DNA of 64,000 nt from positions 20,767,192 through 20,831,191 of the forward strand of contig CM055102.1 of the NCBI GenBank assembly GCA_029204225.1, written 5' to 3'. Within the stretch, counting starts at the first letter, position 1, and every line of letters begins with the position of its first letter. A program made the translations under genes and the position numbers. Under the pieces are notes generated by a model. That model was not told where the DNA came from and ran no database searches. It saw only the letters and a program-made list of their open reading frames with translations. Source of the stretch: Diphasiastrum complanatum (Eukaryota > Streptophyta > Lycopodiopsida > Lycopodiales > Lycopodiaceae). Shown piece after piece: positions 5,146-64,000 of this stretch.

Positions 5146-5976
5146 ATGGCTATGACAATCCAGACCAGAGTAGCAATCAGTATTGATGGTGCAAATTACA
5201 GAATCTGAAAATTCAAAATCAAAATACTCTTGAAGGACGAAGGCATCTGGTCGGTGACCGAGCTGTCAGAGGTGCAGCCTCCAGAGGGAGACCCGAGGAG
5301 AGTTGAATGGATCAGAAAGGATGAGCGCGCAATGGCGATCATCGTTTCGTTCATAAATGAAGATCTACTCATGCAGATTGAAGACTGCGAAAGCAGCCAT
5401 GCAACGTGGGAAAGATTAAAGCAGAAGTATGAAGTGAGGACTGCAGCTTCAGTCATGCACCTTCACAATCAGTTGCAATCCATACGGTGGGATGGCAACC
5501 AATTAGATTAGCACATTGAGAAGATCAGAATGATCTTCGCTCAACTCGCTGCATCAAGACAGGAGCACCAGGTCCCAGCACTACAGCAGATGATGTACTT
5601 CATGAAATGTCCACCGACGTCCTATCAGCCGCTACGAGTGCTCATACTGAGTCTACCAGATATGACATTCGACAAAGCAGTCAGTCTTGTCGTCGATGAG
5701 AGACTGATGAGAGACAAAGGAGAGGGAAGCAGTGATCAAGAGAAGGCTCTCTTCACAAAAGAAAGGAAGAATGCTGGTTCAATCCAGCAATACCTTGCAT
5801 GCACTACAAGAAGAAAGGGCATTCTGCATACGACTACAGATTCAACCCAAAAAGAAAAAACAAAGTTGAAAAGACAAACATTGCAAAGTCATCAAGGGAT
5901 GCTAAAAGAGGTTATGAAGCTTTCACGATACTCTACGAAGCTTCGACAAGCTACTCTGGACACAACTACGATGTAG
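5146..5976 (+). pseudogene. copia gag of R2, broken
   Basis: The frame starts at ATG 5146 with a typical copia Gag N-terminus. The Trp expected in the YxIWKFK motif is TGA at 5206; the copia at the right end of the window keeps it as YNIWKFK. Downstream come ATWERLKQKYEVRT and the LHNQLQSIRW segment, a TAG at 5509, and then a frameshift near 5790, after which the zinc-knuckle region continues in another frame. In the knuckle (C..Y....GH....Y, near 5795-5845) the second and last Cys are Tyr, each one transition away. Gag would form the virus-like particle; this copy could not. Confidence 0.85.
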
Positions 5977-7300
5977 TCATCGATTCAGGAGCAAAATCTC
6001 ACATAACCTGCAACAAGAAGATCTTGATCAACTTTTGCGAACTCGAAAATGACAGAGCAGTGATTCTAGGCGATGAAAGCAGACACGATGTCAAATGCAT
6101 CGGCTCTCTACAGCTACGAACATTGTCAGGCCAAGCAGAGCTGCCAGGAGCACTCTATGTGCCCTCACTTAGAAAGGATCTGCTATCTGTCTCCAAGATG
6201 GCAGATTTAGGCATTCGAGTTTTGTTCGATGGCAACACTTGTTGTATGATCGAGAAAATGACAAACAAGTTGCTGACGGTCGGATGCAGAGAAGAAAATC
6301 TCTACCAGGCCAAAATAATCAGCAACTCTGAAAGCATATTAAATGCTTCAAAAAATGAAGATCAGCTCTGGCATAGAAGAATGTATCATCTGAACATGCG
6401 GATCCTGTATGACATGAGCAGAAAGGACATTGCCACAAGTCTCAAGATTTCAAGACCAGAGACTGAGTTTTGCGAAGTTTGTCAGAAAGGCAAGCAACAT
6501 CGGAATCTATTCACACACAAAGGAAGAAGAGCCAAAGAAGTTCTTGAGCTCGTCCACTCTAATGTGTGTGAACCGATGTAAATAGGTTCGCTCTCAAGTT
6601 TGAGATATTTTCTAACGTTCATAGATGATTACATCCGAATGACCACGATCTACTACTCGAAGAAGAAATCCGAAGTATTTGATTCTTTCAAGAAGTTCGT
6701 GGCATTCGCAGAGCGACACACCTCGAAAAAGATACACATCCTTATATTTGACAATGGAGGTGAATACAAAAGCATAGAATTCTGAAGATTCTACAAAGAA
6801 CAGGGGATCGAACACCATCCCAATTCTGCATACACACCAGAATACAACGGTGCGGCAGAAAGAAAAAACAGAATGCTAGTTGAAGGAGCCAGATGCATGA
6901 TGGCACAGGCTCAATTGTCAGGTCAATTCTGGACCGAGGCAATAGCTGCAGCTGTACACTTGTAGAACAGATCTACAATGACAATGCTGGAGAACAAAAC
7001 ACCATACGAAATGTGAACATGCAGAAAGCCTGATCTGTCATACATACAAGTGTTTGGATGTGCAACATACAAGCACATTCCAAAGGAAAAGAGAAGAAAG
7101 CTTGATGACAAATCCGAGCAAACAATCATGGTCGGCTACTTGAACGGAACACATGTGTACAGACTCTATGGTCCAACCACGAAGAAGGTTGTTTCAAGCA
7201 GAGATGTGAAGTTCAACGAGTCCACATTCCCTGGACTGAAAGATGAAAGAGGCCATGAGATCTTCACACTGCTGCCTATTCAAAAGGGAGATTGAGGACA
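5795..7300 (+). pseudogene. copia protease and integrase of R2, broken
   Basis: The protease active site reads VVIDSGAKSHIT near 5972-6010. The pre-integrase zinc region follows (LWHRRMYHLN, then CEVCQKG), then the integrase core with the three acidic residues in TFIDDYIR, FDNGGEYKS and YNGAAERKN. The C-terminal part has VFGCATYKHI and TIMVGYLNG. In-frame stops occur near 6579, 6783, 6963 and 7012. Protease would cut Gag-Pol and integrase would insert the cDNA in the nucleus; the catalytic residues survive but no full protein can be made. Confidence 0.88.
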
Positions 7301-19023: not shown

Positions 19024-20080
19024 TCCTAGCATAGTTTTTGCCAATAGAACTTTGATCCATCATAAGAATGATCTTCTTCCTAAGAATAGATCTCCTTTCA
19101 ATGATCATGTAATGCTCAAAATATAAACAACCATAATTGATATAGAGAATAGTGTCCACTTGGGATGCTTCACTATTTCTTACATCAATTTTACATGTAA
19201 AAATGTGACTACAACATGAAGAATCAAATAGAATGTAAGTGAGATGATTCCACCATGCTTCCAACTCTGAACTCTCTAGAAAAATACAGCAAACAAACAA
19301 TAAATGTGAGTGATCAACTTTTGCTTGCATGTCTCCTCCTCATTTGTCCTTTGTTGCCTTGTATCCACCATGATACTCCATGAATGAGCCTCCATCTTCA
19401 TCTTGCCACAAGAAATCATCAAACCTTGGAAATCCATGAGTAGGTGAGTACATAAATGATGCAAATCCAGCACCACATGACTCCATAAACCAAGTAGTTT
19501 GCACTAGTCCATCTTCAAGATCTACTTGACACAAGAAAATGACCATGAATTCACCAAAAATTGACAATCTCCAAGTATTGGCACCAAGTAGCTCAACACT
19601 TGAGAGCTTAGCCATGGATGAGTGACATAATGAACCTCCAATAGCTTCAGCAAAATCAGCCAAGAATGCTAGTACAAATCCAACATCAAAACAATGCTCA
19701 CCACTAGTTTTGCCATATCTTGACAATTTGCACACATCCACATGAAATTGCTCAAACATGAGATAGAACAAGTAAAGTAAACTTGAACAACACTTCCTTG
19801 CTGCTCCTTTGACCTTACTTTAGTCTTCAATATGTTGCAAAAACAGATCCATAACACCCTTGCCAATTACCTCTCCTTTGATGCTCTTGACTAGCTCCAA
19901 ATTGCCAACTTCCCTTTTGACTAGTTGAAGCGCTTTGAGATCAACCTCTTGATCTTCAACTTGACCATCAAAGTCATTGAAAAAACTTTTTTTTCCAGAT
20001 CCATTACTTGATTTTACAGCAAGATAACATCCATCCACTTGCATAGCTCCATGTACACAAGAAGATCCTCCAAAAGATGT
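19023..20080 (-). other. Foreign segment in place of the reverse transcriptase of R3
   Basis: On the minus strand the pol frame runs through the join (after EYRSLMKSGT) without shifting and stays nearly open for about 1.05 kb, with stops only at 19820 and 19340 that I can place. The peptide starts SFGGSSCVHGAMQVDGCYLA, includes ELLGANTWRLSIFGEF, and ends near SSIGKNYARSIGS. None of it resembles RT: no KARLVAKG, LDVxxAFLxG or YVDD. The length is close to the missing RT (about 1 kb). I do not recognise the source; it may be a captured host sequence or another element's coding region. Confidence 0.75.
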
Positions 20081-21703
20081 TCCACTCTTCATAAGAGATC
20101 GATACTCAAGATCCATTGGTTGGATCCACTCCTCTTCTTTCCTTGCTTGATCTACACTTGTAGGATCATCCAAAGAGGTTAGGAAAGCAACATAATTTTC
20201 AGAAACTACTTGCTTACCCTTTTGATCATATGTGAGCCTTGAAGGTACTTTTCTTTCTCTTGATGTTCTCCTTGGCTTTTGACTTGATGAAGGTCCATCA
20301 TCACCACCATCCAAAGTAGGATCCTTCTCAACAACATCAAGAATGTTAGATCCATCTACTTTACCATCAATCATGCTTGAAGACACCTTTGGAATATTTC
20401 TCTCATAAAAAATGACATCTCTACCAACAATCACTTTGTTAGTAGAAGGAATGTAAACCTTGTAGGCTTTACTCACCTCACTATATCCAACAAAAATACC
20501 TCTTCTTGAAGATGGATCCTCCTTGGTCCTATCATCAAGAGTAATGTTGACATAGCATGTGCATCCAAAGGTTCTTAGAAAGTTGACACTCGGCCTCCTC
20601 TTGAATAGCATCTCAAAAGGTGTCCTTCCATCCAAAATAGCACTCGGCCACCTATTGCACAAGAAATTGGCACACAACAAAGCTTGATCCCAAAATGGTT
20701 TGTCAAAATTAGCACTTAACCTCATAGCTTTAGCACTTTCACATAAAGTTCTATTCTTCTTTTCAGCCACTCCATTTTGTTGCGGGGTCCTTGATGTTGT
20801 ATACTCCCTCTTGATCCCATGCTCATCACAAAAGGCCTTGAACTTGTTAGATATGTACTCACCACCATTGTCACCTCTCAAGCACTTGATCTTTGTGGAT
20901 AATTGGTTCTCCCTTGCATTCTTGAACTTGACAAAGACATCATACACTTCATCCTTGATCTTTAGTAGATAGATCCAACAAAATCTACTAAAATCATCAA
21001 TGAATGTTACATACATCTTAGCTCCACTATTGCTAATTGTAGTAAATCCATGAATATCCGAATGTACAAGTTGAAAAGGCTTTGTAGATCTAGAAATAGA
21101 TCTAGTATAAGGTAGTCTATGTGACTTACAAAAAGCACAAGACTCACAAACATGCTTGTCATTACTTAAGGAACTTGGAAGACCAATCACAACCTTCTTC
21201 CTTGCCATTACCTCCAATGACTTGAAGTTGAGGTGTCCCATCCTTTTGTGCCAAATCTCTTGAATAGAAATTTGCTCCCTTGCAACACATCCAACTTGGT
21301 TAGCAATAACACAAGCATCAAGTTTGAACAACTTCCCTTGTCTTTTACCTTTTCCAATCAAGACATCCTTCCTTTTGATCAAACAAGCATCTCCATCAAA
21401 CTCCACCTTAAGACCCTTACTTAGCATTTGACTCACACTAAGCAAATTCTTGGTAATAGATGGAATAAACAAGACATCCTCCAAATGAGCATTCCTATTT
21501 GTAGAGAGAGAAATAGGAATTGTGCCAATCCCTTTGATTTCACACTCACCATCATTGGCCATGTAGATCACCCTCTCGTCATCTCCATATGCCAACAAAG
21601 AAGTGAAGTACTCTTTGTGAAAGGTCATGTGTGAACTTGCTCCACTATCAATCCACCAAGGATCTAGATCTCCATCATTAGCAAGCATACATGAAGACAT
21701 CAC
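20081..21703 (-). CDS. copia protease and integrase of R3
   Basis: This is part of a long uninterrupted frame. Order: protease active site WWIDSGASSHMTFH (near 21650), HLEDVLFIPSITKNLLSVSQ, the pre-integrase zinc motif (IWHKRMGHLN, CESCAFCK), the integrase core with its three acids in VTFIDDFSRF, RGDNGGEYIS and NGVAEKKNRT, then NFLCNRWPSAILDGRTPFEM, FGCTCYVN, GIFVGYSEVSKAY, the linker, and the first RT residues. The core looks intact. Protease matures Gag-Pol; integrase joins cDNA to chromosomal DNA in the nucleus. Gag lies one frame away at about 21700, whereas copia elements normally use one frame, so a 1-base indel there is likely. Confidence 0.9.
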
Positions 21704-22551
21704 AAAAGCATCATCGGCACATCCAAATCATCCTCATCAAGAGTAAGATTACCTTGCTTGTCTCCTTGATCTCTCTTCTTCTTGTAGCACTCACTTGCAA
21801 AGTGTCCTTTGATGCCACAATAGAAGCACTTGAGCTTTGATCTATCCTTCTTTTTGCCACTTGAAGAAGCATCCACTTGATCTTGCCCTTTAGACCACTT
21901 GCTTTTGGTTTTGCCCTTGAATTTGCCCTTTGTGAACATAGCATCCTCTTGAAGTGTCGATGTAGATCCACCTCTTGCTTGAAGCCTATATTCCTCATTG
22001 ATCAAGATCTCTTGAAGATCCATCAAACTTGGCAAAGTCTTTTGAATAGCAATACTTTGAACAATGTTAGCATGAGCATCCAACAAGCCATTAAGAATCA
22101 CTTGAATAAGCTCTCCTTCCTTAATGCTTTAATCTATGCAAGCTAACTCATCATTCAATACTTTCATTCTCAAAACAAAATTACTTGGAATTTCTTCATT
22201 CTTTTGCAAACAAGAAAAGATTTTTCTTCTTAGAGTCAACACTCTAGAAGTAGACTTGGATTCATAAAGCTTCTTCAATGAATTCCAAGCTTCTAATGAT
22301 GATGTGCAATTACCAACTTCCTTGAGAAATTCATTGGTAACATTCATCTTTATCATGTGTAGAGCCTTCTTGGCCCTCTTGTCATACCTCAATTGATCTT
22401 CTTGTGTTGCTGGTCTCTCCTCCAAACCTACAACAATATCCAAAACATCATTCATCTCAAGAAGTGACTCCATCCTCACTTTCCATAATGAATAGTTACT
22501 TGAGGTAAGCCTGTCATTGGCTTCCAACATGACTCCAATTGAGGTTGTCAT
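21700..22551 (-). pseudogene. copia gag of R3
   Basis: It starts at ATG 22551 (MTTSIGVMLEANDRLTSSNY, then SLWKVRMESLL). Next come YDKRAKKALHMIKMNVTNEF, LEAWNSLKKLYESKSTSR, NFVLRMKVLNDELACID and, after a basic stretch, a canonical zinc knuckle CFYCGIKGHFASECYKKK near 21780-21830. One in-frame TAA at 22129 interrupts it; the frame then continues to 21700. About 280 residues, normal for copia Gag. It shares clear block similarity with gag of R1 at 2709. Confidence 0.9.
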
Positions 22552-23139
22552 GTAGCAATGACCTGATCTTCTCTTTCAACCTGTTTCAATGCACAAAGCA
22601 CTCCTTTGAACAACAACAAATGCTTTCAAAAGAAATCACCAAGATTTGAAACTATCTCACAAATTCTCTTCTAGCACTTATCCAAGCAAATCAACACATA
22701 GAATCATGGAATCTTGATCAACCTATGATCTATTCTCAATCTAATGACTTTTGCCACTTCCTAAGATTGAAACACACTCAAATGAAGTCCAGCAATCTCA
22801 CTATCTAGAGATCCAATCAAAATTAGGGTTTTGACAAAATCACAAAAAATTGACTATTCCAAATCTACATGCAAATGCTGAAAATTTGATATGCAATCTA
22901 TAAGCCACCACTTAGGCTGAACCAATGATCCAAAAATCGGCCAAATCCAGCATGTGAATTAAAAAAACGGAATTGAACAAGTATATTGACCTATTTAGTG
23001 TTTTGATCTACAAAAGATCCAATCTACAAAAGCAAAAAATCCGATTTTGGTGTAGAATCCTCTCTAGCATGCTCTAGACTTGATATCTTCACCAAATCAT
23101 TGATAGATCTGATTTCCTCCTTTATAACCTGAAACACAA
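22552..23139 (-). other. 5' leader of R3
   Basis: About 590 bp between primer-binding site and gag; no coding frame that I can support. Confidence 0.6.
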
Positions 23140-30282: not shown

Positions 30283-31698
30283 ATTTACTATTTAGTCTTT
30301 ATTATTGTCAATTTGAAGAGTGACACCAAACTCGATCATGATTTGTGAGTCGAGTATTCAGGTGCGACTCATAAACTGATTAGACGTGCAATTTGTTACC
30401 AATAACAGCATAAGTCAATTTAGGTGACATCAATGTCACTAAGGTTGTAGAGTTGCCACCTAGGTCACGTTTCATGTTGAAATTTTTTTAACCTAAATTA
30501 TGTGAAATGTCATGTCATTAACTCTTTTGAGGTTTGACCTTTGAATTTTAAACTTTGCAAAGTGCAAATAAGATTCAGAATCTAGAATAGCATTTGAGTA
30601 GCAAGTTGGAACTTGTAACTTGTAAGTAGGAATGTTTCAAGTTCAATAGATCAAAAACTAAGATTCGCGAATCAGAATTTAGAAGTCATTGGTCATAAAC
30701 AACTAAACATGTAATAACTATGTGCCTATAGACCCAATTGATTCAAAAAAATGTAAAAAATCAAAAAACCTAAATCAGATCCTCTGATTCGTTCCCTAAA
30801 TGTCGATCCAGACAAGTTTGAATGGGACGAATTGGTCAATTTGAATAGCTAATTCAGATTGGTCCGGGAAACATTGATCATCATCACTTCATTGTGTGGT
30901 TGTTATACAATGCTCAATATATGATCTTGTCATAGCTGCAAGTAAGACGACATCCAAAACACCAAGGCATGCATGCCATGTGATACTGCAAACAAAATGT
31001 CGTGAACATATTGAAAAGTAATAATCATCATGGTTAGGATATGATATTCCATTAACTGATAAGAGAGAGAGTGTGCATGGCGATGATATTTACTAGGTAG
31101 ACCACCTTGTACATTGACTATCATTTGATATCGTAAGCTTTAATTTTGTAGACGAATTCAACGAGTTTATTCATCTTTCCGATATCGTCCATATGCTTCT
31201 CTCGTCCAGAAGAGCAGACGTTACAAAAGCACCTAACAAGAATCCTAGGACTGCTGCTTTCCCAGAGCATCTCGTCATGTAGTGACGAAGAATCTTCAGA
31301 TGTTGCATTGTGGGTGCCGCACAACTTTACATTTTGAAGCATCAGATTGCTGCAAGATCCATAGAGTATCCGTTTGTTCCACCCATATTTGTTCCATGTA
31401 AATCACACTTAGCTCTTCAAGCTTGAGGTGATATTTCAAATTTATTGATATTTGCTCATCAACAAAGCTGCTAAACCACAATCTAATTTTACTCAACCTG
31501 AATTTTTCAGTAAGCTAAGGAGAACTTATTATGCACCTTTTAAATAGCTGTATGTTCCACCAATTGGGAATGCTCATCCAATAAACGATTTTGTATACTA
31601 AAAAGAAAATAAAATATATTTGTAGAGATCTAGATACACAAGCTACCACCCTATTACTTATTAGATGATTAATATGCACAATTCGAGAACCTACAGGA
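30283..31698. other. Spacer left of the TRIM, no gene assigned
   Basis: Minus-strand frames at 31296-31496 and 31121-31342 are short and unrecognised. If the SERINC gene is intact its later exons should lie in or beyond this stretch, but I could not find them. Confidence 0.4.
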
Positions 31699-31842
31699 TG
31701 TTGGAATATCAATCCACACTCTAGAGAGAACTATCAGACAGGGCGGATAGCTCAGTGGTAGAGCATCTCATCCGGAATGAGGGAGGTCCTGGGTTCGAAT
31801 CCTACTCTGTCCATCCATATTATGATTTATGGATTTCTAACA
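31699..31842 (+). repeat. 5' LTR of the TRIM
   Basis: 144 bp, TGTTGGAATATC...TTTCTAACA. Confidence 0.95.
31741..31813 (+). ncRNA. tRNA-like sequence in the 5' LTR of the TRIM
   Basis: 73 nt fold as a tRNA: acceptor GGGCGGA with TCTGTCC (7 pairs counting G-U), D stem GCTC/GAGC, anticodon stem TCTCA/TGAGG, T loop TTCGAAT, discriminator A. Pol III A box TAGCTCAGTGG at 31748-31758 and B box GGTTCGAATCC at 31792-31802. The T stem has one mismatch here. The anticodon loop is TCCGGAA; position 33 is C rather than the universal U, and the variable region is long by one, so decoding ability is doubtful. More likely a tRNA-derived Pol III promoter than a working tRNA. Confidence 0.8.
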
Positions 31843-31854
31843 TGGTATCAAAGC
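31843..31854 (+). promoter_or_regulatory. Primer-binding site of the TRIM
   Basis: TGGTATCAAAGC abuts the LTR end TAACA; initiator-Met-tRNA type with one change. Confidence 0.88.
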
Positions 31855-31953
31855 CAAGTTAACAGTTCATGGTGTCAAAGCCATGGTTAGGTGGCCCAAG
31901 TTGAGGGGCAGGTGACAGCTAGGACCCCAACCAAGTGTGGCTTGAAAGGGGGG

Positions 31954-32097
31954 TGTTGGAATATCAATCCACACTCTACAGAGAACTATTAAACAGGGCG
32001 GATAGCTCAATGGTAGAGCATCTCATCCAGTATGAGGGAGGTCCTAGGTTCGAATCCTAGTCTGTCCATCCATATTATGATTTATGGATTTCTAACA
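31954..32097 (+). repeat. 3' LTR of the TRIM
   Basis: 144 bp, same ends as the 5' LTR, preceded by the polypurine tract at 31944-31953. Confidence 0.95.
31996..32068 (+). ncRNA. tRNA-like sequence in the 3' LTR of the TRIM
   Basis: Same 73-nt layout. The T stem CTAGG/CCTAG is perfectly paired here. A box TAGCTCAATGG at 32003-32013, B box GGTTCGAATCC at 32047-32057. The anticodon loop is TCCAGTA, different from the 5' copy, and again lacks U33. Confidence 0.8.
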
Positions 32098-32240
32098 CAG
32101 CCAGTGTAGCATTGTGTCGTTGATAAAGTTTAAACTAGAAGATTCAAAGCAATATATAAGAAAATGACCAATATAGAGTACTTAACTCTTCAGTAAGGAA
32201 GCTTGACGGTAAGGAAGCTTGAGGCTAAATTGTTCCTTAC
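32098..32240 (-). other. Start of SERINC intron 1 (predicted)
   Basis: The minus-strand donor GTAAGG (32235-32240) opens an intron that the TRIM would lie in. The first run of four or more T on the plus strand after the TRIM is at 32246-32251, just inside the exon. Confidence 0.55.
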
Positions 32241-32423
32241 ATGTATTTTTTCAAGCAATGGCCCTGCAAAGTCTCGGAGAAGCCAGGCGAGGAGGAGAGA
32301 CAAGGTGAACAAGCCACAGTAGGCAATTCTTGCTGATCTACGAGAAATACCACGAGCTACTCCTTTGCACGCCTCGCATGCACAAGAAGCACAGCAAGAG
32401 GCAAAGCATGATGCAGCCCACAT
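32241..32423 (-). CDS. SERINC (serine incorporator/TMS1) family protein, first coding exon
   Basis: The exon encodes 61 residues from ATG 32423: MWAASCFASCCASCACEACK, then GISRRSARIAYCGLFTLSLL and AWLLRDFAGPLLEKIH, ending at donor GTAAGG. The cysteine-rich start followed by SRRSARIAYCGLF and a first membrane helix is the signature N-terminus of SERINC/TMS1 proteins, polytopic membrane proteins of the endomembrane system. Some animal members have been linked to serine incorporation into lipids and others to lipid scrambling; the plant role is poorly defined. An acceptor-like CTTGCAG near 32491 suggests an intron in the 5' untranslated region. Later exons (about 340 residues) were not found to the left within 1.1 kb, so the gene may have a long, TRIM-bearing intron or may be broken. 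Confidence 0.85.
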
Positions 32424-33100
32424 GATTCGCGATCCTAACAAACAAGAGACCAAACTGTAATGATTCCTCCTCAGTCTTATATTTCAATTACCTGCAAGAT
32501 TTTTTTAAAGGTTTCAAATATAATAGAGCTCTGAAGTTTCCATACTTATTTCATAAGGATGATGTGTCTGCAGTGAAAAATTAGAAGGTAATCAACTCCT
32601 TTCGACTTTATTTCACTTACAACAAGAGAAGAAATGAAAACCTAGCAGTTGGAACGATTCAAAACTTTCACAGAGAATATGTTGCGGGTACCGCAGTCCA
32701 GCGCTAAATGAGATAGCAAATAAACTATAGCAAGTAAGTGGAATGGTTAATTGCTCAAACACATTCAAGAAAACTAACCCCCACCTTGCCGTGAAACAGA
32801 AAAACGACCTTACACTACCCTAACTCATCATCTAGCAGTTACGATCCATATACGAACCCTACACCTTCCAACTCCAGAGCTTCCGAAAATACTACAAAAA
32901 GAATAAAATTGGCCAAGAATTACCGGATGCTCGAGAAATGCAAGGAGTAGCTTACGATCGGAGAGTTAAACGTGAAGTCGAGTTGCTGAAAGAGGCGTTG
33001 GCGATGGTGGTTCGACGGTCGATCGAATGCCCTTTTGCGACTTGCAACACCACACTTTCAACTCATCGTTTCATTCTATTAAATAAAACTCGTTTTTTTT
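32424..33100 (-). promoter_or_regulatory. Presumed 5' untranslated region and promoter of the SERINC gene
   Basis: About 680 bp upstream of the start codon hold an intron-like acceptor near 32491. I see no clear TATA box and no other gene. Position, not motif, is the evidence. Confidence 0.4.
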
Positions 33101-38060: not shown

Positions 38061-39179
38061 TAGTTATTGTTGTTGTATATCGGTTCATTTTGACTCACTC
38101 TAGATCCATTTACATACTTCATATAGTTGCATCAGATCATTTCATAGCTTGCCCATAGGATATCCTAGATTTACTTTTGTTATAACAAAGCTCAAAGGAT
38201 TTCTCGCAAAATTTCGGAAGCCAGAATGTCACATATAATAGCTGACACAACTCGCAAAATTTCGAAAGCCAACCGACACAACTCGCAAAATTCTGGAAGC
38301 TAGAATGTCGCAAAATCTGCACTCGTCGCACAGCTCGCAAAACTTGCAAAACAGCTCACAAAACTCACAAAAGTTCGTTGGGTGTGATGAAGTCTATTGT
38401 GCTTCTTGACTCTTCGGACTCAATGCAAAACTTTACCCGATAAGTCTACAGACTCTACACACATTTGCACTCAATATAGATTATTATCATGTGCACTCTG
38501 TGAACGTCTTAAGCGTCAATGAAGTTGGAGATCCATTTCGAGACTGCACTTCATAGGAGGATCTATTTCAGCAAACTATGTATAGTCTCTTACCATTGCA
38601 TTAAAATTTTGATGAGGAAACAACATCGGCTTGACCAATGCAAACTGGAAAATGGCGTTCTATGTGATGGCATTCGTCATGATAAAAAAAAATGCCAGCA
38701 AAGGCTTATTACTAAGTGACACACATTCACATACATTAAAGAGCTACTCGCAAACAAATTTGTGCACTGTGATTTGAAATCTTAAAAGAGCACTGCAATG
38801 ACTCCAATATTGCAATTCATATGCTTCTTCAGTGTGAGTTTGGTGATAATGCAATCCAGAATTTTATGCTTAGCTTCTAAAATAATCGATCTGGCCTTAT
38901 GTTGCTCTATATTTACGCTCTCCCATCTCTTGACACACTGCGTCTTAGCCACGGAGGTTGACAAAGGTTGGCGTCAATTTCTTTGTTGTATCAAATTTAA
39001 ATTTCTTTGGAGTGGCACTAAATTCAACATATCACTAAGTCCATTTATTACTACTTATTACTCAATCTGAACATTTCTAAATAGATCATCTAGGTATAAT
39101 GTGTTGCTATTTCTTAAAGTATACATCACTGCTGCATCAGTGCTTAAAGTATACATCAGTGCGATTAAAAGGTTGATTC

Positions 39180-39640
39180 GATACATACATAAAAGATTGA
39201 TTCAATAATTAAAGAAGGAATTAAAGATCCAGGCACGCATGCCTGTGCATCCTCCTGCTCTGAAATGAAGCCGTAGGCATCCGATCGAGGTGACCAAACT
39301 AAAGACAGATTGAACAATTTGGCAATCAGTGACAGATTTCTTCCAAGGTGGAGAGTATCCAATACTGACCAAGAACAGGTAATAATATAGAATTGCATGG
39401 GCGCCCGTGTTGCTGAGTATCGTTAAAACCTGCAAAGATTGAGTGTACTGGAACTAGCAGAAGCACATGATTATGACAGCCGCGTGATGGAAGACATAAA
39501 AAAATGTAATCTATTGTTTGCGCAAAACGACGATCACAGTATCAAACAACTGATAGAATTTAGACAGATAGTATATGTTAAACCAGAAGAAGACCCTGCC
39601 TACAGGCCTGGTGCCAAGAGGAAAGCAGAGCAGCCGATCT
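39180..39640 (+). pseudogene. Exon-like coding pieces inside unit B, copy 1 (unrecognised gene)
   Basis: One block (about 39180-39379) reads DSIIKEGIKDPGTHACASSC, one stop, then RLNNLAISDRFLPRWRVSNT and DQEQ, ending at a GTAATA donor-like site. A second block from about 39439 reads LSVLELAEAHDYDSRVMEDI, then IEFRQIVYVKPEEDPAYRPG and ends AKRKAEQPI-stop at 39642. Codon-like coherence, and the same frames in copy 2 (51536-51998), suggest fragments of a host gene carried by the repeat. I do not recognise the protein. Confidence 0.5.
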
Positions 39641-39984
39641 AAACCTTTCCTGGAGCTTTGCCATAGCTAGAAGCTCTCTTCTATCTCCACCACACGGCCT
39701 GCTAGCAGCCGATGAAGATTGTGAGAGAGCTTAGGAGCAGAATGAGGTTGTGAATGGCGGGGATAGGACCTAGAGGGATGGGCTTTTTTTTCCAACTAAA
39801 CAACAACTTTATGGAGAAGATGAGTAATAGATATAGAGGAACGGAGAACACCAGGAATGTCCAAGATCCGTCCCAAGTGTTCTGATCTTACCGGAAACTC
39901 GCCACAAAAGGATGACCAGCTGCCCAGTATCTGAGGCTATATTTTCACCTTTGTAGTGGATGTGGCTTCGCTGCCACTCTCAAA

Positions 39985-40250
39985 ACCATGGGAAACAATC
40001 AGCTCTTTTCAGCTGAAGGTTTTGAGCAAAGGATTTTCGAGACTGATGTAACTGTTTCAGGAAATTTTGAGACCTTGGTCTTTGGCTCGCCAAACAAATT
40101 AGACTCGCATTACTTTGCAGATATACTCTCTGATTAAGACAGGACGTTATTGCAATAGTATCATGAAAAACTCCTAGCGCAGATTGGCCAATACAAACGC
40201 AATCTGTGTCTACAAGCTTTCATAACTATCATTCGAACAACTACAAAATG
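39985..40250 (+). pseudogene. Coding-like piece inside unit B, copy 1, with stops
   Basis: The plus frame reads MGNNQLFSAEGFEQRIFETD, VTVSGNFETLVFGSPNKLDS, HYFADILSD-stop, a second stop, then YHEKLLAQIGQYKRNLCLQA. In copy 2 the first stop is a Lys codon (LLSDKDRTLFQ), so copy 2 is better preserved. Not recognised. A minus-strand frame over 40180-40454 (EADLHGNGINPVQIRSFLTF) is also open and could be the real coding strand for that part. Confidence 0.45.
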
Positions 40251-40634
40251 TCTTCCTTGGAAGTTGGTGTAAAAGGCCTGTGTGTCTAAGATCAGAGTGG
40301 TATTTGCTGCTATCGAGATCCATCCATCGAGATCCTGAAGCAAACATGTCTCTCGCAATCTGGCTCTAAATGTCAGAAAGGATCGTATTTGAACGGGGTT
40401 GATGCCATTACCATGGAGATCGGCCTCAAAGGTCATGTTGTGGAGATCGCTCAAACCTGATTGACGCCCTTGCTATGGAGATGCCTTTGGTCGCTAGATC
40501 ATCCTCTGTCATCGAGAGAGAGAGAGCGAGGGGGGCTGGGCAATGGCAGGAGAATTACAGAAAAAAGGAGAAAAAGGCAGGAAATATACGAACATAGAAA
40601 AGAGGGTCAACGTTTAAACCGTGAGGGGCCATTA

Positions 40635-40745
40635 GATGCATGCATGGGAGGAGGGCCATGCATGCTTTTTTCCATGCATCCATCCTTCTCCCCAAGTTTT
40701 TAAGTTAGAAAAAGCTCATGCATGGGTGAGGGGAGGAGCATGCAT
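40635..40745. promoter_or_regulatory. Cluster of RY-type CATGCATG motifs (copy in unit B1)
   Basis: Five CATGCATG or CATGCATC/CATGCATGG sites fall within about 110 bp (GATGCATGCATGGG, CCATGCATGC, CCATGCATCC, CTCATGCATGGG, GCATGCATGG). The cluster recurs at 42484-42600 and 52977-53090. RY elements are the known target of ABI3-type B3 factors; any regulatory role here is inference. Confidence 0.6.
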
Positions 40746-41017
40746 GGTGCACCCATACACATGCACAAAACTGTACATAAGTTTAAATATATATATAGAC
40801 TAGTAAAGAGTGCCTATTGTTGACGGACAACGGCGAACGTGTGTCGATGGCGGACGTGCATTGATGGCGAACGTGCATCAATGTGTGTCCATATGTACGT
40901 GGCCAAAGTACGACGGGTGGGTATCAAAAAAGTCTGATTTTGAGTATCAAAAAATTCTGATTTAGGGTTTAGGGTTTAGGGTATCAAAAAATCCTTCTTT
41001 GCCAAGCTCAACGTTGG

Positions 41018-41390
41018 GTCGGAAAAATTCGAGTCTTCGGAAACATTCGAGTCTTTGGAAAAAATTGATCTTTTGGAAAAATTTGAATCTTCGAAAAAAT
41101 TTGAATCTTTGGCAAAATTTGAGTCTTTGAAAAAATATTCTGAGTCTTCGGAAAAATTTGTTTCTTCGAAAAAATTCGGGTATTTGAAAAATTTGAATCT
41201 TCGAGTCTTCGGAAGTCTTTGGAAAAAATAGTTTCTTGGAAAAAATTTGAGTCTTCGGAAAAATTCGAGTTTTCAAAAAAATTTCAGTCTTCGAAAAAAA
41301 TTTGAGTCGTCGGAAAAATTCGAGTCTTCGAAAAAAATTCGAGTCTTTAGAAAAATTCGAGTCTTTGGAGAAATTCTGATTTGATAGTAC
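41018..41390. repeat. Minisatellite (GAGTCTTCGGAAAAATTC type), block 3
   Basis: Same 17-20 bp wording as blocks 1 and 2, followed by the CAAAGGGTCGAA motif near 41390-41525. Its left part is the end of unit B copy 1. Confidence 0.9.
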
Positions 41391-49818: not shown

Positions 49819-50552
49819 CACAATCGTACGTGTTTCTATTTTTGTCAATGCGCTCCTTCGTACGAAAGTGTCATCCATGCATCCACAGTTCATTGTATTT
49901 TTGTACTAAATGAAATAGGACTAAATGTGTTAGAGATACAACAAACATGTACAAAATTGCACGTACAAATGTTTTAATTAACATGTGAATGATGATCATC
50001 ATAACTTACATGTAAATTGCCCCTTGCATATTTATGCTCTCCTCTATTACTTCCTGGTTGTTTGTCGAGGCTTCTCTAAGGGCATCGCATAGCCAATCAA
50101 GTGTCATGTCCTTGGGTAGAAGGGCGAGGTCAGGTGGATATGGTTGTCTTTTATGCCCTCTCCTGAAAGTGGCTCGAGCGGTTTCGGTCTACGAGCATTG
50201 GCATCTTAGTATAACGAAATCCAACTTCTCCTTGAAGGACTCACTCATTCTCATGATTGCTCCTTTTCCTTGAGGAACTTCTCCAACAACACACTCATCA
50301 TTCTTCTTATTCCAAAGACGAGGAATAGAAGGATCGCTATGAGCAAGCAACTCCGTGATGTAAACCATGGACTCTTGCACTAGCCATCCTTCCGCCATGC
50401 TACCCTTAGGCCTTGCTCTTTGTCTTACGAAGCCTTTCAATGTTTTCATAAATCGTTCCAAGAAAATCATCCAACGACTATGGACAGTGTGCCTAAATTT
50501 AAAAAATGGATCAATGATAGTCTACATGGGAATTACCACAATAGCAATAGTC
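49819..50552 (-). repeat. CACTA-derived direct repeat A1 left of unit B
   Basis: About 734 bp nearly identical to 53499-54235, from ACAATCGTACGTG to ACAATAGCAATAGTC. Confidence 0.92.
50189..50510 (-). pseudogene. DUF4218 exon of CACTA transposase, copy in A1
   Basis: The minus strand reads TVHSRWMIFLERFMKTLKGF, RQRARPKGSMAEGWLVQESM, a Lys/Asp-rich linker, and ends near KEKLDFVILRCQCS. It is the same exon as 53873-54166, and the upstream exons are missing because unit B begins at 50553. Confidence 0.82.
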
Positions 50553-53497
50553 AAAATTTTGGAAGCCAGAATGTCACATATAATAGCTGACACAACTCGC
50601 AAAATTTCGAAAGCCAACCGGCACAACTCGCAAAATTTTGGAAGCTAGAATGTCGCAAAATCTGCACTCGTCGCACAGCTCGCAAAACTTGCAAAACAGC
50701 TCACAAAACTCACAAAAGTTCGTTGGGTGTGATGAAGTCTATTGTGCTTCTTGACTCTTCACACTCAATGCAAAACTTTACCCGATAAGTATACAGACTC
50801 TACACACATTTGCACTCACAATATAGATTATTATCATGTGCACTCTGTGAACGTCTTAAGCGTCAATGAAGTTGCAGATCCATTTCGAGACTGCACTTCA
50901 GAGGAGGATCTATTTCAGCAAACTATGTATAGTCTCTTACCATTGCATTAAAATTTTGATGAGGAAACTACATCAGCTTGACCAATGCAAACTGGAAAAT
51001 TGGAAAATGGCGTTCTATGTGATGGCATTTGTCATGATAAAAAAAAAATGCCAGCAAAGGCTTATTACTAAGTGACACACATTCACATACATTAAAGAGC
51101 TACTCGCAAACAAATTTGTGCACTGTGATCTGAAATCTTAAAAGAGCACTGCAATGACTCCAATATTGCAATTCATATGCTTCTTCAGTGTGAGTTTGGT
51201 GATAATGCAATCCAGAATTTTATGCTTAGCTTCTAAAATAATCGATCTGGCCTTATGTTGCTCTATATTTACGCTCTCCCATCTCTCGACACACTGCGTC
51301 TTAGCCACGGAGGTTGACAAAGGTTGGCGTCAATTTCTTTGTTGTATCAAATTTAAATTTCTTTGGAGTGGCACTAAATTCAACATATCACTTAGTCCAT
51401 TTATTACTACTGATTACTCAATCTGAACATTTCTAAATAGATCATCTAGGTATAATGTGTTGCTATTTCTTAAAGTATACATCACTGCTGCATCAGTGCT
51501 TAAAGTATACATCAGTGCGATTAAAAGGTTGATTCGATACATACATAAAAGATTGATTCAATAATTAAAGAAGGAATTAAAGATCCAGGCACGCATGCCT
51601 GTGCATCCTCCTGCTCTGAAATGAAGCCGTAGGCATCCGATCGAGGTGACCAAACTAAAGACAGATTGAACAATTTGGCAATCAGTGACAGATATCTTCC
51701 AAGGGGGAGAGTATCCAATACTGACCAAGAACAGGTAATAATATAGAATTGCATGGGCGCCCGTGTTGCTGAGTATCGTTAAAACCTGCAAAGATTGAGT
51801 GTACTGGAACTAGCAGAAGCACATGATTATGACAGCCGCGTGATGGAAGACATAAAAAAATGTAATCTATTGTTTGCGCAAAACGACGATCACAGTATCA
51901 AACAACTGATAGAATTTAGACAGATAGTATATGTTAAACCAGAAGAAGACCCTGCCTACAGGCCTGGTGCCAAGAGGAAAGCAGAGCAGCCGATCTAAAC
52001 CTTTCCTGGAGCTTCGCCATAGCTAGCGGCTCTCTTCTATCTCCACCACACGGCCTGCTAGCAGCCGATGAAGATTGTGAGAGAGCTTAGGAGCAGAATG
52101 AGGTTGTGAATGGCGGGGATAGGACCTAGAGGGATGGGCGTTTTTTTCCAACTAAACAACAACTTTATGGAGAAGATGAGTAATAGATATGGAGGAATGG
52201 AGAACACCAGGAATGTCCAAGATCCGTCCCAACCGGAACCTCACCGCAAAAGGATGACCAGCTGCCCAGTATCTGAGGCTATATTTTCACCTTTGTAGTG
52301 GATGTGGCCTCACTGCCACTCTGAAAACCATGGGAAACAATCAGCTTTTCTCAGCTGAAGGTTTTGAGCAGAGGATTTTCGAGACTGATGTAACTGTTTC
52401 AGGAAATTTTGAGACCTTGGTCTTTGGCTCGCCAAACAAATTAGACTCGCATTACTTTGTAGATCTACTCTCTGATAAAGACAGGACGTTATTCCAATAG
52501 TATCATGAAAAACTCCTAGCGCAGATTGGCCAATACAAACGCAATCTGTGTCTACAAGCTTTCGTAACTATCATCCGAAACAACTACAAAATGTCTTCCT
52601 TGGAAGTTGGTGTAAAAGGCCTGTGTGTCTAAGATCAGAGTGGTATTTGCTGCTATCGAGATCCATCCATCGAGATCCTGAAGCAAACATGTCCCTCGCA
52701 ATCTGGCTCTAAATGTCAGAAAGGATCGTATCTGAGCGGGGTTGATGCCGTTACCATGGAGATCGGCCTCAAAGGTCATGTTGTGGAGATCGCTCAAACC
52801 TGATTGACGCCCTTGCTATGGAGATGCCTTTGGTCGCTAGATCATCCTCTGTCATCGAGAGAGAGAGCGAGGGGGCCTGGGCACTGGTAGGGGAATTACA
52901 GAAAAAAGGAGAAAAAGGGAGGAAATATACGAACATAGAAAAGAGGGCCAACTTTCAAATTCAATGAAGGGGACATTAGATGCATGCATGGGAGGAGGGC
53001 CATGCATGCTTTTTTCCATGCATCCATCCTTCTTCCCAAGTTTTTAAGTTAGAAAAAGCTCATGCATGGGTGAGGGGAGGAGCATGCATGGTGCACCCAT
53101 ACACATGCACAAAACTGTACATAAGTTTAAATATACATATAGACTAGTAAAGAGTGCCTATTGTTGACGGACAATGGTGAACGTGTGTCGATGGCGGACG
53201 TGCATTGATGGCGAACGTGCATCAATGTGTGTCCATATGTACGTGGCCAAAGTACGACGGGTGGGTATCAAAAAAGTCTGATTTTGAGTATCGAAAAATT
53301 TTGATTTAGGGTTTAGGGTTTAGGGTATCCAAAAATCCTTCTTTGCCAAGCTCAACGTTGGGTCGGAAAAATTCGAGTCTTCGGAAACATTCGAGTCTTT
53401 GGAAAAAATTGATCTTTTGGAAAATTGAATCTTCGAAAAATTTGAATCTTCGAAAAAATTTGAATCTTTGGCAAAATTCGAGTCTTTGAAAAAATAA
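50553..53497. repeat. Dispersed repeat unit B, copy 2 (about 2.95 kb)
   Basis: Nearly identical to 38207-41137. It keeps coding-like pieces better: SEEDLFQQTMYSLLPLH without the stop of copy 1 near 50890-50940, DSIIKEGI...RFLPRWRVSNT and the LSVLELAEAHDYDSRVMEDI block at 51536-51998, and the GNNQLFSAEGFEQRIFETD block near 52328-52600. It has the same RY cluster (52977-53090), telomere-like (TTTAGGG) tract (53304-53324) and terminal minisatellite (53364-53495). Confidence 0.92.
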
Positions 53498-60045: not shown

Positions 60046-60960
60046 AGTAGTGAAATTAGCCTGCCTACATGGTCTGATCTTGAAAATCCGACATCTAGAG
60101 CAAGTTGTGTGAGAGTTCACCTTCTACGAGGGTTAAACCTTCTCAAACAGGCTGAACCTTCACAGAACCTTCGCAGGGCAGTCAAATCACCTTCTGAACC
60201 TTTGTAGACTTCACTAAGGTCTTAGAATATTATGATGAAGGTCCCTAAAATTTTTTGGTTGGAACTGAACTGGAGAAAGTGCACTTTTCCTAATATGCAC
60301 TCTAATTTTTGCTATATAAGGGAAAAAAATTCGAGTAATTTGGCACTTCATTCAGCGAAGCTTTGCCAAAAAAATATACTAGATTTTCAATGTTATCAGA
60401 TTGCAACAAAAATTCTCACCAGCCTTCATCAACTCTCAAAGCCACCTGTTACACACAGTGCCACCATTTCCACCTTCGTTCTCACGATTTTCATCTTTTC
60501 ACAGTTTTTTAAGCCTTTAGCCTGTTTTTTACGCCTTTTCCTCTTTCTTGAGTGACTTTTCACCTTTCTTCCATCTCCGTCGCTAGCGCACCTTTTTGAC
60601 CATCTAACGTCATGACTTCTTCTTCCTCTACTGACGATACCCAAACGAAGTAGGTTATCCAACGTGAGATACCTGTTGGAATGACAAAGTGGAGCCACAG
60701 CCCATGCTCAAAGAAATACCATAAGTAGAAGTGGGACTTTGTTCAAAGTGGATATACGTGGTAAATGTTTAAGTGTTCAATGTCCCCTGGTACCAGCCCC
60801 TTTGCGAGTAAGGGGGAGCACTTGGATTCGTGGGCGGCTAGGCGTTTAGGGACGAGATCCTGGAACGCGGCTCACGGAAGGGGCAAAAGGCTCCGTGATT
60901 TTGGTGCAACCTCTGAACCAAAGAAAGGCTAAGTTACATCATGGTGCAACCTCTGAACCA
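60046..60960. other. Spacer, no gene seen
   Basis: Contains a short direct repeat near 60902-60973 (TGGTGCAACCTCTGAACCA twice). No supported gene. Confidence 0.5.
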
Positions 60961-60971
60961 GAAAGGTTAAG

Positions 60972-61700
60972 TTGTATCCATTGAAGGCCCATCGAATCAA
61001 CAACGATCTATCTATTTGTGTTCCCAACGTCCATCATGTTCCTCAGCTATCAAAGAACCTGTTATCAGTCTCTAAGATAACTGATGAGGGCTACATTGTT
61101 ACTTTTTCATCTGAGCAGTGTACAATATCTGAGGAAGATACTACTCTGACTACATGCACTAGAGTCAAAAATCCTTACATACTCTCTAATTCAGTTGCAT
61201 TAGCTAGCACTTCTCATGAAAATGTAAATGATAATGCTATTATGTGGCATAGTCGATTTGGACATGTGAATACAAGATCACTTCCCTATATGTGTTGTAA
61301 TAATATAGTTGATGGATTGTATTTCCCTTCTTCATTAGATAAGAAATTTTTCTTTTTGTGAATCATGTGTCCATGGAAAACACTCTAGAAGCAAGTTTCC
61401 CAAATCACATTCCATCAAAACAAAACATGTATTGGATCTTGTACATAGCGATCTTTGTGCTCCAATGCCAACTCCGTCCTTAGGAGATGCAATCTATTTT
61501 ATCACTTTCATAGATGATTATTCTAGATGGTCTACAGTCATGTTCATTAAGCACAAATCTGAAGCCTTTGAATGCTTCAAGAGATGCAAGGCCATGGCTG
61601 AGTGGTGAGAACACTTTGTATTGATGGTGGCGGTGAATACTTCTCTAACGAGATGTCCAACTACATGGGTGAACATGATATTAGAAGACAGTTCACCACT
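60972..61700 (+). pseudogene. copia protease-integrase fragment, broken
   Basis: The frame encodes the end of the protease region (VPNVHHVPQLSKNLLSVSKI), the pre-integrase zinc part (MWHSRFGHVNTRSLPYM), a frameshift near 61355, then CESCVHGKHSRSKFPKSH, LDLVHSDLCAPM, ITFIDDYSRWSTVMFIKHKS and, after another shift near 61605, LCIDGGGEYFSNEM. The first two catalytic aspartate regions (FIDDYSR and IDGGGEY) are present; in the second, the usual DNGGE is DGGGE. Sequence is lost after QFTTSYFF, near which the next element begins. Truncated at both ends. Confidence 0.85.
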
Positions 61701-62056: not shown

Positions 62057-63288
62057 CCTTAGTGGCTTGAATCACCGGACAAGAACAGAGAGCTACAGAT
62101 TCACGACGGTTTGTTGGCTAGGAAGCACAAAATCGAGTCTGTGGAGATTCGTGGAACGGCTCAAAATTGTAAAAAGGATTCAGAGACAGGGAATTGTTGG
62201 TTGAATCAGAAAGCAAGCAAAGATTGAAGCTGAAAATTCTTCTGGAGGGTTGCTTGGCGTTTGTGATTTGTTTGAATCCAACCGAACACCGTTTGAAGAG
62301 CGGTTTGGAGCAGAGGATTGTCTACAGTAGGGCAACCTCAGCCAGATAGGAGCCGCAAGTGAAAGCTCAGGGAAAGCCTAAGTAAAGCCCAATATATCCT
62401 TCTCTTGTTTCAAAGTGCAAAATCTGGGATATCTCCTTGTAGGAGGCCGTTTTCAGAGCTATAAGTTGCTGAGAATGGGTGCCCTAGTAGTGCGATTCAG
62501 CAGTAGGGAGGCCGCGACTGGTGGTGGAGGAAGAAAGCAGTCAGATCGATCCACAAGGAGCAGCCATAGACTATGAAGAGAGAGAAGAGTCCATCGTAGA
62601 GAGAGAGAAGAGGAGGAGAGGTTGCGAGACCTCTCGCGTGCCCAGTTCAGTTAGTCAGTTAGCGGCCCAAAGTGCTTGGTGCTTCGAAGGCCCTTGATCA
62701 ATGCACAAATGCGTGGAAAGCCGTCCGATTTCGAATCACACAGATCAATGATGGTTATTACATGACAGGTGGGTCGTTGGATCTAAAGGATCTGTTGGAT
62801 TGATGTGAAAAAGTCTGAAGGGTTTTGAAGTGCAAAGTGCATTGCAACTTCATTTAAAATCTTCAAACTGAAAAAATTGTTGGGTCCCAAGGTTTTGAAG
62901 GGTGAAGTTTCTTCACACTGAAGAAATAGTTCAAAAACCCAAATTGCCCTTATTTTCACCTCCTTTAGCCTATTTTGGCCAAACACAAGGCTATAGCCTC
63001 CAAACGAAGGACACCTTGACTGTACCTACAAGTACGATACACAAAACAGAGTGATTGCCGTGGAGAAAGTGTTCGAAGCGCGCCAGAAGTGATTTCACCA
63101 TTCCACTAGGCAGGAAGCTGGGAGTTGGTGATGAGAAGCATTTCGAAAAACGACGCCAATTTGGCTTTCAATTTGGCGAAAGAGAGGCGGGTGGCCTGGT
63201 AAGCTAAAAATTGCAGGTGATTTCTGAATCACGGTTGGCTCCAGCATATACTTTATAGCCTATAGGTGAAGTTTCAAGCAGTTTGGAG
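62057..63288 (+). other. Long leader of R8
   Basis: About 1.23 kb between primer-binding site and gag. It contains GAGAGA-rich purine sequence near 62570-62620 and a segment near 62783-62990 whose wording (TTTTGAAGGG, TTCAAACTGAA) resembles the opposite strand of part of R6. No coding frame that I can support. Confidence 0.6.
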
Positions 63289-64000
63289 ATGGCAAACATC
63301 AATGAGGCAATTTTGGGCGATGCAAGCAAACTTGATGGGGCTTCTAACTACAACATCTGGAAATTCAAAATGAAGAGCATTTTGATGGAGAAAGAGTTGT
63401 GGGAGATCGTGGCAGGTATTGATGTCCGGCCAAATACCACTCCATGTGACATAAGGGCCTTTGATAAAAAGGCGCAGAGAGCATTGTCCTTGATCAATCT
63501 TTCAGTGAAAGACCATGTGATCACTCATATAAGTGATGCCACGATGGCTAGGGGAGCTTGGGAAGCTCTTAGAATGCAATTTCAAACTTGCAATCCAGCT
63601 CGAGCCATGTTCTTGAAGTCGCGATTGAACGCAGTAAGGATGGAAGAAAGTGAATCAATGGGATCTTTCTTCACCAGGATAAAGGAGCTGAGAGATCAAC
63701 TTGTGGCGATTGGAGAACAAATCAGGGATATTGAATTGGTACATACCACAATGAGCGGTGTCTCGTAAGGGCTACAGATGTTTGTGAGTGGCATTGCTTC
63801 GAGGGAGAGATTGCCTACTTTTGAAGACTTCCATGGAATCATGTTGCAAGAAGAGCAGTGTCGCGAAGTGGTGAAGTCAAGGCAAACCCCACAGGAGGGT
63901 CAAGCCTTGCTTGATAAAGGCAAGCAGAAAGGATGGAAAAGGATTGCTAAGAAATCCAAGGATGATGATGACGAGGGAAAGTCGTCATCAAAAGAGAAAA
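63289..64000 (+). CDS. copia gag of R8 (partial, one in-frame stop)
   Basis: From ATG 63289: MANINEAILGDASKLDGASN, YNIWKFKMKSILMEKELWEI, FDKKAQRALSLINLSVKDHV, AWEALRMQFQTCNPARAMFL, KSRLNAVRMEESESMGSFFT, RIKELRDQLVAIGEQIRDIE. A TAA after MSGVS at 63766-63768 breaks it, where a Leu/Lys-like residue would be expected, and the frame then continues (GLQMFVSGIASRERLPTFED, FHGIMLQEEQCREV) into a Lys/Ser/Asp-rich region at the window edge. It matches copia Gag (UBN2-type) blocks in order. Gag forms the particle. Best-preserved gag in the window apart from that stop. Confidence 0.88.

Follow-up and report, generated by a model that had tools for sequence, protein, structure and literature searches.

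Introduction

The closest described relatives of the element reported here are Helenus elements, defined by Kojima (2024; PMC10886601) as TRIMs with tRNA-derived sequence in their LTRs. The available text of that paper records them from fungi, animals and one plant, Selaginella moellendorffii, and proposes the term TRIMp3 for Pol III-promoted TRIMs. The plant family, Helenus-1_SMo, is described there with LTRs of 120 bp, an internal domain of 85 bp and 5-bp target duplications; by the paper's own statement, Pol III transcription of Helenus is not validated. For Cassandra, the same source describes transcription that starts in one 5S part and ends in the other, with 18 bp shared (PMC10886601). 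Many TRIM families are known to form tandem arrays (PMC4717578; PMC4528315). A CAA within 10 nt upstream, described as a start-site motif of plant tRNA genes, is reported for 36-45% of angiosperm tRNA genes (PMC11700998). Among the papers listed by our literature search, which most subscription journals lay outside, no paper later than Kojima 2024 treats Helenus.

Results

Structure of the element

The element lies in a 64,000-nucleotide stretch of plant DNA (hereafter, the window), and its features are collected in Table 1. The sequence-only reading of this DNA had described two 144-bp LTRs, a primer-binding site (PBS), a polypurine tract (PPT) and a total length of 399 bp, and all of these were confirmed; both LTRs start with TGTTGG and end with TAACA.

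Table 1. Features of the TRIM and its immediate surroundings, in window coordinates
Feature	Position	Strand	Remarks
Whole TRIM	31699..32097	+	399 bp; two LTRs, PBS, PPT
5' target site duplication CAGGA	31694..31698	+	3' copy lost here; L009 and L011 carry both
5' LTR (LTR1)	31699..31842	+	144 bp; same unit in other sampled copies
LTR1 tRNA-like sequence	31741..31813	+	ARAGORN; Rfam RF00005 over full model length, 47.5 bits, E 1.1e-8
LTR1 A box; B box	31748-31758; 31792-31802	+	placed by eye, tRNA positions 8-18; 52-62
Primer-binding site TGGTATCAAAGCC	31843..31855	+	directly after 5' LTR
Internal domain	31843..31953	+	111 bp; 113-118 bp in other sampled copies
Polypurine tract GAAAGGGGGG	31944..31953	+	directly before 3' LTR
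3' LTR (LTR2)	31954..32097	+	144 bp; 8 mismatches vs LTR1
LTR2 tRNA-like sequence	31996..32068	+	ARAGORN; Rfam RF00005 over full model length, 53.7 bits, E 2.1e-10
LTR2 A box; B box	32003-32013; 32047-32057	+	placed by eye
Site of missing 11 bp, including 3' target duplication	32097..32098	.	retained in both L009 and L011
First T run (TTTTTT) after LTR1 tRNA-like sequence	32246..32251	+	outside element

A search of the same genome scored 40 of 1469 first-look candidates, which gave 45 matches. Our main sample consisted of 40 loci among the best matches, that is, the window copy and 39 fetched regions, and the query favours the copies most similar to it. The other two-LTR copies are 403-406 bp long. 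In all 40 sampled loci TGGTAT starts at the LTR end and a G-rich tract closes the internal domain. The PBS reads TGGTATCAGAGCC in 35/40 copies, a sequence that contains the PBS letters given for Cassandra; the tract before the 3' LTR is made of purines only in 39/40, the exception (L028) being GAGCCGGGGGG.

The window is rich in retroelements. Pieces of Copia-type gag/pol, recognised by Pfam matches such as Retrotran_gag_2, rve, Pol_BBD and gag_pre-integrs, lie at 2011-2718 and 19820-22575 on the minus strand and at 5736-6581, 60957-61361 and 63259-63768 on the plus strand. A direct repeat of about 2.95 kb (96% identity) occupies positions 38207-41157 and 50552-53495.

Copy number and target site duplications

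Perfect 5-bp target duplications flank the element at 34 of the 40 loci of the main sample, whereas swapped flank pairs give 15 of 1560; tolerating one mismatch raises the figures to 36/40 and 40/1560. Exact duplications of 4 bp or of 6 bp were each seen at none of the 40 loci. Since eight pairs of loci share flanks, seven loci were removed as further records of an insertion already counted, and 27 of the remaining 33 carry perfect 5-bp duplications.

At least 920 places in the genome match the 36-base LTR/PBS junction at three or fewer mismatches, and the same pattern read backwards matches none. A second sample was made of 20 of these 920 places, all of them exact matches and all on contig C1; two of its members, L174 and L186, look alike and may represent one insertion. 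Perfect 5-bp duplications were found at 6/20 of these loci (0/380 exact with swapped flanks), and five further copies have duplications that, judged by eye, differ at one base. The LTR alignment covers the tRNA-like part in 19/20 of these copies, the exception (L184) being a fragment, and ARAGORN calls a tRNA in 17/20. As the junction lies outside the tRNA-like part, its presence in 19/20 copies so picked indicates that it belongs to the element.

The exact 18-base junction TAACATGGTATCAAAGCC occurs 176 times in the genome. Among 70 loci examined, from the first 100 of these, 13 are copies of this TRIM; L126, where the match is 25 bases at the PBS only, was left out of that count. Each of the 13 has at least one LTR covering the tRNA-like part, and 7/13 have perfect duplications.

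We conclude that the element is a dispersed, multi-copy transposon family. Three doubts had been voiced along with the sequence-only reading: that the unit is single copy, that other copies lack the tRNA-like part, and that the LTRs are a tandem duplication with no target duplications elsewhere. They are answered, respectively, by the at least 920 dispersed junctions, by the 19/20 copies picked independently of the tRNA-like part, and by the perfect duplications at 34/40 loci.

The window copy itself has the flanks CAGGA and CAGCC and hence no target duplication. In L009 and L011, two copies with the same flanks, CAGGA stands on either side of the element, and the 11 bp absent at the right end of the window copy are present. 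About 1.7-1.9 kb around the window TRIM is repeated in the genome at 95-97% identity (L002/L009, L004/L011), one repeat of these surroundings lying on the same contig, about 50 kb upstream.

The tRNA-like sequence

ARAGORN makes just two calls in the window, one per LTR of the TRIM, with anticodon CGG in LTR1 and CAG in LTR2. Both sequences exceed the gathering score of RF00005, which is 29. The sequence-only reading had noted a 73-nt sequence with tRNA stems, A box and B box in each LTR. By itself, free folding energy is unremarkable (z of 0.37 and -1.28). On the opposite strand (window 31767-32069), weak Rfam matches to plastid cis-regulatory families, of at most 24 bits and far under gathering scores, probably arise because those families contain tRNA-like letters.

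Among 66 LTRs from 32 loci, 61 carry the A box TAGCTCANTGG, 60 the B box GGTTCGAATCC and 64 the letters GGTTC. A CAA lies no more than 10 nt ahead of the tRNA-like part in 60/66 LTRs, at -6 to -4 in most sampled copies, and equally close ahead of 9/20 host tRNA genes. Both LTRs of the window copy have lost the CAA, which makes it a poor copy for testing. Stem positions are paired in 1316 of 1386 cells, and the single pair that mostly fails is 28-40, which is C-A in 54/66 LTRs. Of the features of a functional tRNA gene that we looked for, U33 is missing from the anticodon loop, TCCGGTA in 59/66 LTRs; a single anticodon is missing, the window copy having CGG and CAG; and a TTTT within 50 nt downstream is found in 1/33 insertions. 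The closest of the 20 host tRNA genes fetched (63 were scored) is a tRNA-Cys gene, L161, identical at 53/78 columns, followed by one at 52/77, a margin too small to single out a parent tRNA.

Mean column conservation across 80 LTRs is 0.982 in the tRNA-like part vs 0.995 in the rest of the LTR. The tRNA-like part thus varies more than its surroundings, which offers no hint that it is under selection. Its variable columns are mostly G>A and C>T. Hot spots of RNA modification were considered as their cause and rejected: the changes, mainly G>A/C>T, are patternless by eye, with two columns carrying the minority letter in 11-12 of 66 LTRs.

Distribution of T runs

The claim that the plus strand is free of TTTT from 31741 to 32097, with the first T run at 32246, proved accurate. 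TTTT follows the 5' tRNA-like part within 50 nt in 1/33 insertions vs 17/20 host tRNA genes; because the copies share ancestry, these are not 33 trials, and the contrast is descriptive. Anywhere from the 5' tRNA-like part to the element end, TTTT occurs in 2/33 insertions. Beyond the last LTR, the first TTTT comes at a median of 92 bp (29/33), and 4/33 have none in the flank examined. Among the 40 sampled elements TTTT occurs in 2 and AAAA is equally rare (1/40); in the second sample, TTTT occurs in 4/20 copies. Selected depletion of TTTT was considered and set aside as non-significant, since TTTT turns up in 45% of dinucleotide shuffles made from the window element and is absent from the other 55%.

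Age and tandem arrays

The two LTRs of a copy differ at 0 to 8 of 144 places in 31 two-LTR loci (including L038, which is part of an array). L029 and L036 have target duplications and LTRs without a single difference, and hence inserted recently.

Tandem arrays, with 3 to 6 LTR matches, some of them partial, were seen at 20/23 loci examined; this set was selected (20 loci from a search for internal-LTR-internal structure, plus L012, L035 and L096) and hence gives no rate. One of the 20 junction-selected copies is a 3-LTR array. L136, L035, L129 and L142 are arrays whose LTR matches number 5 or 6. For the first three LTRs of L136 the alignment stops at position 116, which suggests local amplification of a single shortened unit, and L139 likewise looks locally amplified. 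Movement of arrays as a unit, an idea prompted by L035 with its five LTRs and an outer pair free of mismatches, was considered and rejected: among seven arrays with outer target duplications, out of the 23 loci examined, the outer LTR pair is strictly the least diverged in none and tied in one.

Discussion

We consider it probable that the family is a non-autonomous LTR retrotransposon of Helenus type, read by Pol III from its 5' LTR and mobilised in trans. Pol III transcription is inferred here, and read-through that gives a terminally redundant RNA is plausible. TFIIIC would bind the 5' LTR at its A and B boxes, and Pol III would start close to the CAA, a few bases before the tRNA-like part. 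Pol III starting in the 5' LTR must cross that LTR's own downstream part, so a terminator there would stop transcription at once; because the element holds no T run, the polymerase would be expected to pass the PBS, the PPT and the whole 3' LTR and to stop outside the element, at the first flanking T run. The predicted RNA would repeat about 108 nt, made up of the tRNA-like part and the 3' end of the LTR, at its two ends and would carry a host tail. A tRNA would prime at the PBS, and the strong-stop cDNA would jump to the 3' LTR copy, leaving the host tail out. Reverse transcriptase and integrase would be supplied in trans by some autonomous LTR element. In the search for such a partner, the 57 other loci among the 70 examined TAACATGGTATCAAAGCC loci resembled the family at the PBS alone, with neither LTR nor internal domain matched under the cut-offs applied. 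It counts against the mechanism that RNase P and tRNase Z could be attracted by a well-formed tRNA fold and would then cleave the transcript.

A more specific proposal is that the family is a terminator-free Pol III LTR design, in which having no terminator solves the conflict that one placed in the 3' LTR would halt transcription in the 5' LTR as well, with locus-specific host tails and a redundancy of about 108 nt vs the 18 bp of Cassandra. We offer it tentatively and lean somewhat against it.

Transcription by Pol II, as in ordinary TRIMs, would make the tRNA-like part a passenger, for example a SINE that once landed in the LTR and has been copied since. Such a history agrees with the finding that conservation of the tRNA-like part does not exceed that of the remaining LTR, and with the existence of a TRIM (L066) that has the same LTR ends and PBS and no Rfam match at gathering scores. 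We nevertheless regard it as unlikely: the A box, B box and upstream CAA are intact in 60-61 of 66 LTRs, just 42 bp of LTR precede the tRNA-like part, and among 33 junction-selected copies there is no LTR that cleanly misses the tRNA-like part alone, the defects seen there being truncated LTRs and, in L097, a 3' LTR unmatched at positions 26-49.

That there is no transposon at all, and that two ordinary or pseudo tRNA genes sit in a segmental tandem duplication, might be suggested by the tRNA scores of both copies and by the lack of a target duplication at the window copy. The at least 920 dispersed junctions and the target duplications elsewhere already refute it; in addition, the PBS and PPT are correctly placed, the loop TCCGGTA is without U33 in 59/66 LTRs, and the two window copies differ in anticodon. 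We give this explanation practically no weight. Descent from Cassandra, with the 5S part swapped for a tRNA-like part, would account for PBS letters that in most sampled copies equal those of Cassandra and for the tandem arrays of both, but the same PBS is also found in further LTR elements, both in the window and elsewhere in the genome, and we judge such descent very improbable.

Returning to the Helenus reading, the family has two LTRs, a length under 1000 bp, tRNA-derived sequence in the LTRs, a PBS after the 5' LTR and a PPT before the 3' LTR. Its boxes agree with the A box TRGCY...YGG (TAGCTCANTGG, 61/66) and B box GGTTC (64/66) of Helenus, and its 5-bp duplications (34/40, 6/20 and 7/13 in the three samples) with those of the plant family. 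Since each structural feature of Helenus that we tested is present, the family belongs to this known kind: the kind of element is already published, as Helenus or TRIMp3, in the available text of PMC10886601, and the family is a further case. The sequence-only reading of a TRIM with tRNA-like Pol III promoter motifs finds support in structure, copy number and target duplications; its parallel with Cassandra is apt, but the design is not new (PMC10886601).

The single plant species that the available text of PMC10886601 lists with Helenus is joined here by a second plant family, with at least 920 junctions; a clubmoss host would keep plant Helenus within lycophytes. With plant examples rare, the family, some copies of which have identical LTRs, is a good system to test tRNA-like LTRs as real Pol III promoters, and to ask how a Pol III element with identical sequence at its two ends avoids termination in the first of them; the missing stop signal yields a testable prediction. 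Copies of such elements get called as tRNA genes, which is a warning for annotation.

Among ordinary TRIMs, SMART, Wukong and L066 resemble the family in small size, PBS and PPT, and SMART and Wukong, as far as their available descriptions go, also in forming tandem arrays. L066 is an ordinary TRIM-like element (at about 1219-1870 of its fetched region) with TGTTGG...TAACA LTRs of about 290 bp, a short internal part and the PBS TGGTATCAAAGCCAAG, and its first LTR holds a T run. Unlike the family described here, with its tRNA-like LTRs, L066 has no Rfam match, and SMART and Wukong are not known to have tRNA-like LTRs either.

Cassandra, in the available text on it, shares with the family a small-RNA-gene promoter in each LTR, the PBS TGGTATCAGAGC and tandem arrays (PMC7215508; PMC10886601). 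The promoter part is 5S-like in Cassandra and tRNA-like here, and descriptions of Cassandra place Pol III terminators in its LTRs, whereas 38/40 sampled copies of the present family are without TTTT. Rfam reported tRNA but no 5S sequence, both in window 31200-32600 with E up to 1 and, at gathering scores, in L012 and L035. Ajax is likewise described as a TRIM whose LTRs contain a Pol III promoter part; unlike the family it is 5S-derived, and it is recorded from ribbon worms (PMC10886601). The likeness to Helenus, as the available text presents it, extends to LTRs that each hold a tRNA-like part and its A and B boxes, to PBS, PPT, 5-bp duplications and many copies, to tandem arrays, noted for a zebrafish family, and to a tRNA part that in many Helenus families is unfit as a tRNA (PMC10886601). 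From Helenus-1_SMo, compared by description only, the family differs in its dimensions, with LTRs of 144 bp and an internal domain of 111-118 bp vs 120 and 85 bp (PMC10886601).
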